A stretch of DNA of 15,706 nt. Origin: Allosphingosinicella sp. (lineage in GTDB: Bacteria; Pseudomonadota; Alphaproteobacteria; Sphingomonadales; Sphingomonadaceae). The notes beneath the pieces are model-generated. The model saw only the letters and a list, made by a program, of their open reading frames with translations. It did no database searches and had not been told where the DNA came from. The stretch lies in NCBI GenBank assembly GCA_030146745.1, contig JASLBD010000310.1:1-15706 (forward strand), in the 5' to 3' direction. Below, piece by piece: positions 2,323 through 14,933 of the stretch (position 1 is its first letter; each line of letters begins with the position of its first letter). A program made the translations under genes and the position numbers.

Positions 2323-3170
2323 GGCCGGGCTTCACCGGCGCCGGGCTCGACCGCGCCGACCATCTGCGCCTCGACGAGGTTCGGCTTGCGGAGCTTGCGG
2401 CGAGCTTCGAGGCGCGGCTTTTGCGCCTGAGCGGGCTCGATCCGGAGCTGGACGAGGACGGCCGGCTCGGCTGGGACGTGATGGCCGAGGTGGAGGAGCG
2501 CATCTTCCTCGGCTTTCGCGAGGGCGCGCCCTTGTTCGCGCCGCTGATCCGCGCCGAGCCGGGGCAGCGGGCCTGGTCGGTCTTCGCCTTGCTCGACCGG
2601 ATGGCGGCGTCGGACACCGCCGTCTGGGGCACCGCCCGAAGCCTGATCGAGTGGCACAACCGGCACCTTTTCTGCGGCGCCTGCGGGACCGCGACGGCGC
2701 CCTTCCGGGGCGGCTGGGGCCGGCGTTGCGGCGGCTGCGGGCTCGAGCATTTCCCGCGCGTCGACCCGGTGGTGATCATGCTCGCCGAGCATGACGGGCG
2801 GGTGCTTCTCGGCCGCCAGCGGCAATATCCGGCCGGCCGCTATTCCGCCCTCGCCGGCTTCGTCGAGCCGGGCGAATCGATCGAGGAGGCGGTGGCGCGC
2901 GAGCTCGGCGAGGAAGCGGGGATCGAGGTGAGCGACGTCCGCTACGTCGCCAGCCAGCCCTGGCCCTTCCCCGGCCAGCTGATGATCGCCTGCACCGCGG
3001 CCGCGGCCGGCGACGAGATCCTTCTCGACGCCAACGAGCTGGAGGACGCGATCTGGGTGGACCGGGAGGGCGTGAAGGCGGCGCTGGCGGGGGAGCCGGG
3101 GGCGCCGTTCCTGGGCCCGCCCCCATTCGCCATCGCCTATACCTTGCTCAGCCACTGGGCCGAAACTTAA
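2319..3170 (+). CDS. nudC: NADH/NAD+ pyrophosphatase, Nudix family NudC
   Basis: Hydrolyses NAD(H) to NMN(H) and AMP; family members also remove NAD caps from RNA 5' ends. 283 residues from the ATG at 2319, which overlaps the mutY stop as ATGA and suggests translational coupling. A longer reading frame back to 2232 lies inside mutY and is not used. The N-terminal domain (1-115) is followed by a four-cysteine zinc ribbon, C119, C122, C137 and C140. The Nudix box is complete: G180, E186, R194-E195, E198-E199 and G201. The NudC signature SQPWPFP follows at 212-218, but the residue usually Ser two positions later is Gln (PGQLM). The TAA stop merges with the left edge of repeat A1. Confidence 0.95.
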   Translation: MRPGFTGAGLDRADHLRLDEVRLAELAASFEARLLRLSGLDPELDEDGRLGWDVMAEVEERIFLGFREGAPLFAPLIRAEPGQRAWSVFALLDRMAASDTAVWGTARSLIEWHNRHLFCGACGTATAPFRGGWGRRCGGCGLEHFPRVDPVVIMLAEHDGRVLLGRQRQYPAGRYSALAGFVEPGESIEEAVARELGEEAGIEVSDVRYVASQPWPFPGQLMIACTAAAAGDEILLDANELEDAIWVDREGVKAALAGEPGAPFLGPPPFAIAYTLLSHWAET

Positions 3171-3297
3171 ATCCTCCCCGGCATTTGCCGGGGAGGGGGA
3201 CCAGGCGAAGCCTGGTGGAGGGGCTCTTCCGGCGCTGTAGAACCCCTCCACCGCGCTTCGCGCGGTCCCCCTCCCCGCGAAATCGCGGGGAGGATTT
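3169..3297. repeat. Palindromic intergenic repeat, family A copy 1
   Basis: About 129 bp with ends AAATCCTCCCC and GGGGAGGATTT. In order: hairpin CCCCGGCATTTGCCGGGG, hairpin ACCAGGCGAAGCCTGGT, a long stem GGTGGAGGGG pairing with CCCCTCCACC across a linker of about 19 bases, hairpin ACCGCGCTTCGCGCGGT, then hairpin CCCCGCGAAATCGCGGGG. GGGGAGGGGGACC in the left half is the exact reverse complement of GGTCCCCCTCCCC in the right half, so the element can also fold as one large cruciform. Copies at 9325-9454 and 14802-14933 have the same layout. It lies between nudC and the cytochrome c gene and could end or stabilise the nudC transcript. No T-tract follows, so it is not a textbook intrinsic terminator. 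Confidence 0.93.
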
Positions 3298-3396
3298 CCC
3301 CATGTCTTGCCCCGTCTCCCTCCCCCGCCTAAAGGGGCTCGCGAATTTCCCTCATCCCGCGCCCGTCCGCGGGCCGCCCTGGAGGTCTTTGAAGGC

Positions 3397-4104
3397 ATGG
3401 ACAACCGCTCCAACACGATTGCGGGCTGGGTGCTCGGCGCCGGCATCGTCGCGCTCGGCGCCTCGATCGTCTCCGGCGAGATCTTCCACCAGGAGCGGCC
3501 CGAGAAGATGGGCTATCCGATCGAGGGCGTGGTCATTCCGGGCGAAGAGAAGACCGCCGAGCCGCCGATCGCCAATTTCCTCGCCGCGGCCAGCGTCGCC
3601 AAGGGAGAGGGCCAGTTCAAGAAGTGCACGGCCTGCCACACCATCAACAAGGGCGGCGCCACCGGCCAGGGCCCCAATCTGTGGGGCGTGATGGGCAGCG
3701 GGATCGGCAAGCATGCGCCCGGCTTCCCCTATTCGCCGGCCCTCGCCGGCAAGGGCGGCACCTGGGACTGGGAGAGCATGAGCCAGTGGATCAAGTCGCC
3801 GCGCGACTTCGCTCCGGGGACCAAGATGACCTTCGCCGGAATCGGCAAGGCCGAGGACCGGGCCGACCTGCTCGCCTATCTCAACGCCCAGAGCGACAGC
3901 CCGCTGCCGCTGCCGACGCCGCAGGCGGCCCCCGCCGCCCCGGCGGGCGATCCCAAGGCCGCCGCCGAGAAAGCGGACCAGCCGGCCGCCGGCGACATGG
4001 GCGAGACGGAGCCGGTTCTGAACGAGCAGCAGGCCACTCCGAACCGGATCGGCGGCGATGGCGCGCCCTCGGTCACGGGCCGGGCGGAACAGCAAAAGCG
4101 ATAG
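3397..4104 (+). CDS. Membrane-anchored class I cytochrome c (CycM-like)
   Basis: Electron-transfer cytochrome tethered to the inner membrane with its heme domain in the periplasm. It probably shuttles electrons between the bc1 complex and a terminal oxidase, as for CycM/cytochrome c552 relatives. The 235-residue protein has an uncleaved N-terminal membrane segment (about 8-30), then one heme site C77-T-A-C80-H81 and a likely axial methionine M144 in PGTKMTFAGI. From about 168 it ends in a Pro/Ala-rich, charged tail with no predicted fold. The ATG at 3397 follows GGAGG (3381-3385) at 11 bases spacing; an upstream extension in frame runs into repeat A1 and lacks the membrane segment at its start. 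The region 3298-3396 holds the presumed promoter, but I see no clear -35/-10 pair. Thirteen bases separate it from the next gene. Confidence 0.93.
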   Translation: MDNRSNTIAGWVLGAGIVALGASIVSGEIFHQERPEKMGYPIEGVVIPGEEKTAEPPIANFLAAASVAKGEGQFKKCTACHTINKGGATGQGPNLWGVMGSGIGKHAPGFPYSPALAGKGGTWDWESMSQWIKSPRDFAPGTKMTFAGIGKAEDRADLLAYLNAQSDSPLPLPTPQAAPAAPAGDPKAAAEKADQPAAGDMGETEPVLNEQQATPNRIGGDGAPSVTGRAEQQKR

Positions 4105-14798: not shown

Positions 14799-14800
14799 CT

Positions 14801-14808
14801 TAATCCTC
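14801..14808 (-). promoter_or_regulatory. ligA ribosome binding site within repeat A3
   Basis: On the minus strand GGAGG is followed by ATTAAG and the ATG at 14798. This is a near-ideal Shine-Dalgarno with six-base spacing, and it decides the ligA start. The GGGGAGGATT end is common to all copies of repeat family A. Confidence 0.8.
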
Positions 14809-14933
14809 CCCAGCATTTGCTGGGGAGGGGGACCATGCGAAGCATGGTGGAGGGGTAGCTGGCGAGGTCTGCGCAAGGCCCCCTCCACCACCCTTGGGGT
14901 GGTTCCCCTCCCCACGAAATCGTGGGAGGATTT
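14802..14933. repeat. Palindromic intergenic repeat, family A copy 3
   Basis: Same plan as A1 and A2 but with different hairpin stems: CCCCAGCATTTGCTGGGG, ACCATGCGAAGCATGGT, ACCACCCTTGGGGTGGT and CCCACGAAATCGTGGG. Changes on one side of each stem are matched on the other. The inner GGTGGAGGGG/CCCCTCCACC stem is kept around a longer, unrelated linker. It fills the recN-ligA gap, and its ligA-side end supplies GGGGAGGATT, the ligA Shine-Dalgarno. Confidence 0.93.

Follow-up and report, generated by a model that had tools for sequence, protein, structure and literature searches.

The window examined here is the entire 15,706-nucleotide stretch of Allosphingosinicella sp. DNA (contig JASLBD010000310.1), a sphingomonad chromosome segment whose larger intergenic gaps carry palindromic elements. 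Our main concern is the element lying between serC (phosphoserine transaminase, GTG start, 6473..7612, plus strand) and serA (phosphoglycerate dehydrogenase, 7748..9325, plus strand). Family matches identified genes for a thioredoxin-like protein, DciA, MutY, NAD+ diphosphatase, cytochrome c, a DUF1801 protein, a Lysine_decarbox protein (presumably LOG-type, and called LOG below), an extensin-like protein, SerC, SerA, PurA, a short-chain dehydrogenase, PrmA, LigA and RecN, the last named from an SMC_N match below the cut-off together with its gene context. The closest SerA was that of locus L001, with 83% identity.

The mapped genes form 14 junctions, eight of which are gaps longer than 26 bp (226, 104, 277, 135, 197, 137, 96 and 147 bp). 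An original prediction, made from the sequence of the window, proposed that every such gap holds one structured palindrome, that all other junctions are tight and that no copy lies inside a gene. Within the window this description was accurate: each of the eight gaps holds one inverted-repeat element, the other six junctions (two overlaps and four gaps of 6-14 bp) are free of structured palindromes, and all eight elements are intergenic. The 26-bp cut is partly circular, as the gaps of elements B, D1, D3 and A3 would measure about 9-17 bp without their elements and are long because the element is present.

The elements, none of which is assigned a strand, fall into families designated A to D. 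Element A1 (3169..3297) is an untagged compound palindrome of four hairpin units with outer arms of 59 nt, and its start coincides with the stop codon of the NAD+ diphosphatase gene. Element B (4569..4662), a head-to-head dimer of the CGTC type of repetitive extragenic palindrome (REP), lies between convergent genes, and element C (6234..6380), an untagged compound palindrome of the CCTCTCCC/GGGAGAGG type, occupies the divergent extensin/serC gap. The serC-serA intercistronic gap contains D1 (7614..7737), a CGTC-like REP dimer. Two further dimers of this kind follow, D2 (10819..10905) 3' of purA and D3 (12597..12683) between the convergent prmA and ligA. The remaining A-family palindromes are A2 (9325..9453), which starts on the serA stop codon, and A3 (14802..14931) between recN and ligA. 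In seven of the eight, one end lies some 14 nt or less from a stop codon, the exception being C in its divergent gap above the serC leader. At 7694-7719 a nested AT-rich palindrome (an insert of about 37 nt) replaces the 3' hairpin tip of D1; it was absent at that point in every other locus compared.

When folded, all eight elements are far more stable than their dinucleotide shuffles (RNA z from -6.1 to -11.1, with 0/200 shuffles as stable for each). Hairpins with at least 8 perfect stem pairs numbered 15 in the gaps of the window and two in its genes, both of the latter isolated. A fold-energy profile was discarded as an element detector since it did not separate the elements from GC-rich genes. 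Rfam covariance models run on the window placed no element above its gathering score; microRNA matches to the elements fell below gathering and were taken as chance matches to long hairpins. The only feature to pass was the serC leader, a cis-regulatory RNA (RF00517, 6420-6472, plus strand, 42 bits against a gathering score of 35), which sits between element C and serC and shares its gap with C. The same leader was found in L001 (8701-8753) and L006 (8715-8767), and at the gathering score it was not found in L043, L047, L048 or L053. The serC motif and cis-regulatory RNA are described in PMC1273637, according to which a serC-serA operon lies below the motif in many alphaproteobacteria.

Palindromes in the gaps of related genomes

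Comparisons were made across 80 sphingomonad loci picked by SerA similarity, which share ancestry and are non-independent, so that the Fisher values given below are too small. Gene calls came from a codon model for which 378 mapped genes served as the training set; a model trained on the longest open reading frames (ORFs) called antisense genes and was replaced. The start calls are imperfect (dciA, mutY and extensin), which inflates some empty gaps. Longer genome stretches were also scored and are not a random sample: G003 C3, G008 C1 and G006 C1 are contigs of serA loci, G008 C1, C13 and G006 C1 also had listed matches, and the regions of G001, G004 and G005 were picked for A copies and stand outside the headline occupancy figures. 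A first census scored every strong inverted repeat, a mixed class that included U-tract terminators and in which 40-nt merging hid doubles. A refined class, termed REP-like, required a span of at least 55 nt, separated terminators and short hairpins and used no merging, although it may still miss the two halves of a decayed dimer.

Any strong palindrome was present in 79/404 gaps of 30-600 bp in G003 (800 kb), 33/196 in G008 and 41/164 in G006, and REP-like elements filled 48/404, 21/196 and 27/164 of the same gaps. Most of the relatives' gaps therefore lack a strong palindrome, the very observation that the original prediction had named as counting against itself, and filled gaps are not a general rule. 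Over seven stretches (G003, G005, G006 and G008), at most five of eight consecutive gaps longer than 26 bp were filled, or six of eight when gaps of at least 80 bp were counted. The window ranks as the densest in a set of 75 loci, its own among them, that each span 12 kb or more, with 8/9 called gaps of at least 80 bp filled, the next being 8/11 and 7/12. Its ninth called gap, dciA-mutY, is an artefact of start calls, the mapped gap being 14 bp.

Orthologous gaps point the same way. The gap of A1 measures 62 bp in L006 and 68 bp in L007, that of A2 75 and 72 bp, and that of B 30 bp in L007; all of these lack a strong palindrome, with no inverted repeat scoring above 7. The best palindrome in the counterpart of the C gap scores 6 in L006 and 7 in L001, neither of which is strong. 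The serC-serA gap is 10 bp in L007 and holds a different palindrome in L006, the prmA-ligA junction holds D3 in the window and an A-family element in L205 (G004), and recN-ligA is separated by 7 bp in L215 (G005). Because the gaps of A1, A2 and B are free of strong palindromes in L006 and/or L007, the suggestion that the elements are retained generally as functional boundaries is not supported, and on this comparative sequence evidence we read the elements as insertions in intergenic space rather than as fixed boundaries. The intergenic DNA of the relatives is too diverged to give an exact empty site. The genes ligA and recN are adjacent in 3/30 loci (29, 7 and 137 bp apart) and prmA and ligA in 1/30, so these junctions are too little conserved for the kind of test applied below to serC-serA. 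Two side observations concern these regions. In L006 a 30-nt A2-like match (12946-12975) lies just 3' of purA, the site of D2 in the window, and many loci among L206-L232 share a TTTTTGCAACGCA-like sequence directly 3' of ligA, possibly a terminator or promoter element.

Where elements do occur, their placement is non-random. Shuffled gaps reached the threshold in a mean of 8/928 cases versus 244 real gaps (mixed class). Among the 80 loci, gaps filled by a REP-like element numbered 96 of 514 between co-directional genes, 50 of 170 between convergent genes and 13 of 235 between divergent ones. Lone elements between co-directional genes stood closer to the upstream stop (median 12 nt) than to the downstream start (27.5 nt; n=136, terminators included), in agreement with the published location of CGTC REPs near ORF ends (PMC3733652). 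Absence from genes, claimed for the window, is matched by depletion in the genes of G003 (800 kb), in which inverted repeats of score at least 16 occurred at 5.7/Mb in genes versus 271/Mb in gaps, the in-gene counts including possible gene miscalls with family copies (4/32 matches at score 16). The claim of one element per gap likewise withstood a random-placement test: two REP-like elements shared a gap in 3/514 co-directional and 1/170 convergent cases, when random placement predicted 8.3-11.6 and 6.2-8.7 respectively (P <=0.017).

Occupancy is also junction-specific. The convergent LOG-cytochrome c junction held any palindrome in 18/24 loci and a REP-like element in 14/24, and serA-hisZ (a cluster named by eye) in 19/33 and 11/33. 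The corresponding counts were 3/42 and 3/42 for extensin-LOG and 2/25 and 1/25 for hisZ-purA.

The serC-serA junction

The highest contrast was found between serC and serA. A REP-like palindrome was present in 51/74 sphingomonad serC-serA gaps (those of 30-600 bp, with the window left out and shorter gaps unscored) versus 45/440 other co-directional gaps (p=5e-26). Matching for length at 80-160 bp gave 46/63 versus 15/157 (p=2e-20). The proposal that palindromes are retained as functional boundaries thus holds at particular junctions, above all this one, and not as a general rule. No serC-serA gap was doubly occupied in either class (0/75).

The occupants of this junction belong to different families. 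Over all 80 loci, with the window and short gaps included, motif rules labelled 37 gaps as CGTC, 15 as C-type, 10 as other palindrome and 18 as none; the label "other" is doubtful for L079, L078 and L075, L051 was dropped for runs of N, and several gaps labelled "none" (L024, L049, L072 and L070) resemble decayed elements. Placing the four labels on the SerA tree takes 32 changes; for the C-type alone it takes 11, at least 9 of which are forced by well-supported branches. Unrelated elements were found in the gap despite serC/serA DNA identities of 92.5-94.6% (L053 versus L047 and L061, L043 versus L048, and L014 versus L019 and L009). Among 50 pairs with serA at least 88% identical, drawn from the 63/80 loci with serA of equal length, 24 shared a label, 24 differed and 2 included a locus labelled "none" (L024 and L049), the gaps of which look decayed and not clean. 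In the open PMC literature, searched by full text with the results judged by title or abstract opening and with subscription journals mostly outside its scope, we found no account of family replacement at serC-serA. The serC-serA gap of L034 contains a C-type element with an insert of about 60-65 nt, bearing its own inverted repeats, beside hairpin 1. In L236, a more distant alphaproteobacterium (SerA 65% identical), an unrelated long palindrome lies at the same junction.

Fixed frame and variable tips of the A family

Pattern parsing yielded 100 A halves with a nearly fixed frame and highly variable hairpin tips of 5-17 nt, tip 1 occurring as 49 and tip 2 as 64 distinct sequences. Symmetric positions pair in 88% (tip 1) and 92% (tip 2) of cases, versus 63% and 56% when halves were re-dealt within length. 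For 25 equal-length halves, 98.4% of cells pair versus 84.2% in shuffles, and 58 cells were changed on both sides versus 16.6 in shuffles; slid structures lose the signal. The covariation of the tips and the loss of signal on sliding therefore indicate that single hairpins are the conserved structure of A, through selection or template-switch correction. The length changes of the tips may be a record of hairpin-tip opening and fill-in.

Family A was found in 7/8 relatives' genomes (4-90 matches each, both strands counted) and D also in 7/8 (0-36 matches per genome), in each case among the matches listed. Copies of A were further detected on plasmid-listed replicons, in 16/72,556 records, all of them sphingomonad. 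Copy number together with presence and absence at orthologous sites suggests that the elements are mobile.

Explanations and comparison with known systems

We give roughly even chances to the explanation that REP-like mobile repeats are kept where the transcribed hairpin would act as an mRNA 3' end or decay barrier, largely irrespective of its sequence, an RNA function that we infer from placement and occupancy. Several palindrome families (the CGTC-type dimers B and D and the untagged compound dimers A and C) would insert in intergenic space, and an element that persists would, once transcribed, form a very stable hairpin able to block 3'-5' exonucleases. Such a hairpin could define or protect an mRNA 3' end or, inside the operon, set the serC:serA message ratio. 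Any folding sequence would serve, a second copy would add little, and families could replace one another. A barrier role would explain why elements sit just past stop codons, why the family makes no difference, why a single copy is enough and why divergent gaps seldom hold one. A more tentative proposal is that sphingomonads keep a slot for a palindrome at certain gene ends, serC-serA foremost, into which unrelated mobile families swap, rarely by way of an empty state, with selection acting on the hairpin itself and not on its sequence or family.

The main rival is that elements insert neutrally, at a site that is preferred or permissive. In its neutral form, which we judge possible though somewhat unlikely, mobile repeats settle where an insertion costs little (3' flanks) and deletion removes them, the window comes from an element-rich genome and its gaps are long through the insert. 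This accounts for the orthologous gaps without an element in L006 and L007, the depletion in genes and in divergent gaps, the uneven copy number in the eight genomes (A 0-90 and D 0-36 among the matches listed) and the copies on sphingomonad replicons listed as plasmids. However, independent gain and loss should leave empty or doubled intermediates. At about 70% occupancy, the zero class predicts 28.6 doubly occupied serC-serA gaps, an expectation that rests on the earlier mixed class, when none was seen in either that class or the REP-like recount. Many empty close relatives are likewise predicted, yet only 2/50 pairs contained one, and occupancy of serC-serA is more than 7-fold above that of other co-directional gaps of similar length. 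A second version, which we consider improbable, invokes insertion-site preference: a mobilising enzyme would target existing hairpins or sites by certain stop codons, new elements would replace old ones, and no host function would be involved. The nested palindromic inserts in D1 and in the L034 C-type element, and the replacement of one family by another at a single site, fit this version. Against it, no dedicated transposase was found, Y1_Tnp occurring in 2/8 genomes (the one transposase class searched), and by inspection the CGTC and C-type elements have no common sequence obvious for one enzyme. It is very improbable that the elements are ordinary intrinsic transcription terminators, even though stable hairpins past stop codons and symmetric palindromes between convergent genes would suit that role: a U tract is absent, and because just 2/138 elements in co-directional gaps are followed by TTTT (1.9 T per 10 nt on average) intrinsic termination appears unlikely; genuine U-tract terminators occur in 8 co-directional and 16 convergent gaps of the same loci and in 0/75 serC-serA gaps, and the window has one terminator-like site on an element hairpin (A1, minus strand) and a weak one within B.

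Several observations weigh against retention of the hairpin as an mRNA 3'-end or decay barrier. The serC-serA gap may be filled so often because insertion there is permitted or preferred, and element C occupies a divergent gap. The labels are clustered on the SerA tree (32 changes versus 38.0 when shuffled, as low in 1/200), and occupancy is therefore partly a matter of shared ancestry. The 50 close pairs share members, and disjoint pairs reduce to 6 same, 5 different and 1 none. In L007, L052, L064 and L077, all outside the 74 scored gaps, serC and serA overlap or lie at most 10 bp apart without an element, so the palindrome is not essential. The habit is, moreover, mainly sphingomonad, as the 28 non-sphingomonad alphaproteobacterial serC-serA junctions (13 gaps of at least 40 bp and 15 shorter than 40 bp) included only 2 REP-like elements and 3 strong palindromes of any kind. 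For the A family, tip pairing can come about through template-switch correction with no selection involved, and of five covariation measures two did not exceed shuffles (pairs changed on both sides, 7 versus 5.8; further pair types, 14 versus 12.7).

It has long been asked whether REP-like repeats are junk excluded from genes or working parts. One orthologous junction at which families swap under a constant palindrome makes REP function testable, and the A family, with its near-invariant frame and exchangeable self-complementary tips, may record hairpin-tip mutation.

Comparison with published repeats separates the families. The CGTC REPs were defined by Di Nocera, De Gregorio and Rocco (2013, PMC3733652) by a CGTC (also TGTC or CCTC) tag left unpaired at one end, a stem of 8-9 bp, a loop of 4-5 nt and a CCA-type tail, with an almost invariable AT at the start of the stem, and that account lists them in S. 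wittichii, S. chlorophenolicum and N. aromaticivorans. Sequence comparison indicates that B and D fit these tagged REP dimers, sharing the CGTC/TGTC tag, 8-bp stem, 4-5 nt loop, CC(A)-type tail and head-to-head arrangement. In B, unit 1 reads CGTC-ATGCCGGA-CTTGA-TCCGGCAT-CCA and unit 2 reads TGTC-ATTCCGGC-GAAA-GCCGGAAT-CCA; D3 is tagged CGTC at both ends, D1 TGTC and CGTC, and D2 CATC (degenerate) and CGTC. All seven units recovered from B and D show a stem of 8 bp and a loop of 4-5 nt; the 3' unit of D1, interrupted by the nested insert, was not among them. The tails are CCA in both B units, CCC or CCG in four D units and CTC in the second unit of D2. We call D CGTC-like because its first two stem bases (GTCCC, ACCCC, GCCCC) depart from the AT present in B (ATGCC, ATTCC). 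In G003, CGTC is the commonest 4-mer beside gap hairpins (47 counts) and falls outside the top five beside in-gene hairpins.

Families A and C differ from the CGTC REPs of PMC3733652 in being untagged, with two hairpins per half on the G-rich strand and 10-bp stems. The CGTC tag was not found on A or C, the hairpins of which are flanked by AAAT/GGGA (A) and AACC/AGGG (C). A search of the same literature and scope as above found no description of these two families. Like the published CGTC REPs, B and D lie near ORF 3' ends without a dedicated transposase of the Y1 class, and the CGTC REP paper also finds none in its species. A position kept across species while the family is swapped has no mention in the available part of that account.

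The same source equates Neisseria dRS3 and Rickettsia RPE-4 and RPE-6 with CGTC-1 and CGTC-4 repeats, which places B and D in one CGTC superfamily with them (PMC3733652). Most Neisseria copies, in contrast, are grouped in large clusters, and among the genomes of that study intragenic CGTC copies are most numerous in R. conorii, whereas the elements described here are single and in gaps. The GTAG REPs and REPINs mobilised by RAYT proteins (the subject of PMC3116915 and PMC2817692) are inverted palindrome pairs, multicopy and intergenic, as are our elements. Families A to D differ from them in lacking the GTAG tag, and the Y1 transposase (PF01797) was found in just 2/8 relatives' genomes and not in the other six. 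No family element was found beside the two Y1 transposase genes (L081, 2199 bp; L082, 3321 bp), L082 having neither a palindrome nor a core motif and L081 nothing beyond solitary core motifs and palindromes scoring 10-11.

A functional parallel is offered by E. coli, in which stable hairpins located between cistrons and lacking a U tract are reported to halt 3'-5' exonucleases and to determine the ratio of the messages (PMC5927463). Those barriers were established by RNA mapping, whereas here the RNA step is a deduction and the family is replaceable. The serC-serA elements resemble the decay barriers of malE-malF and of differential operon decay (PMC5927463) in presenting a stable, U-tract-free hairpin between the cistrons of an operon.

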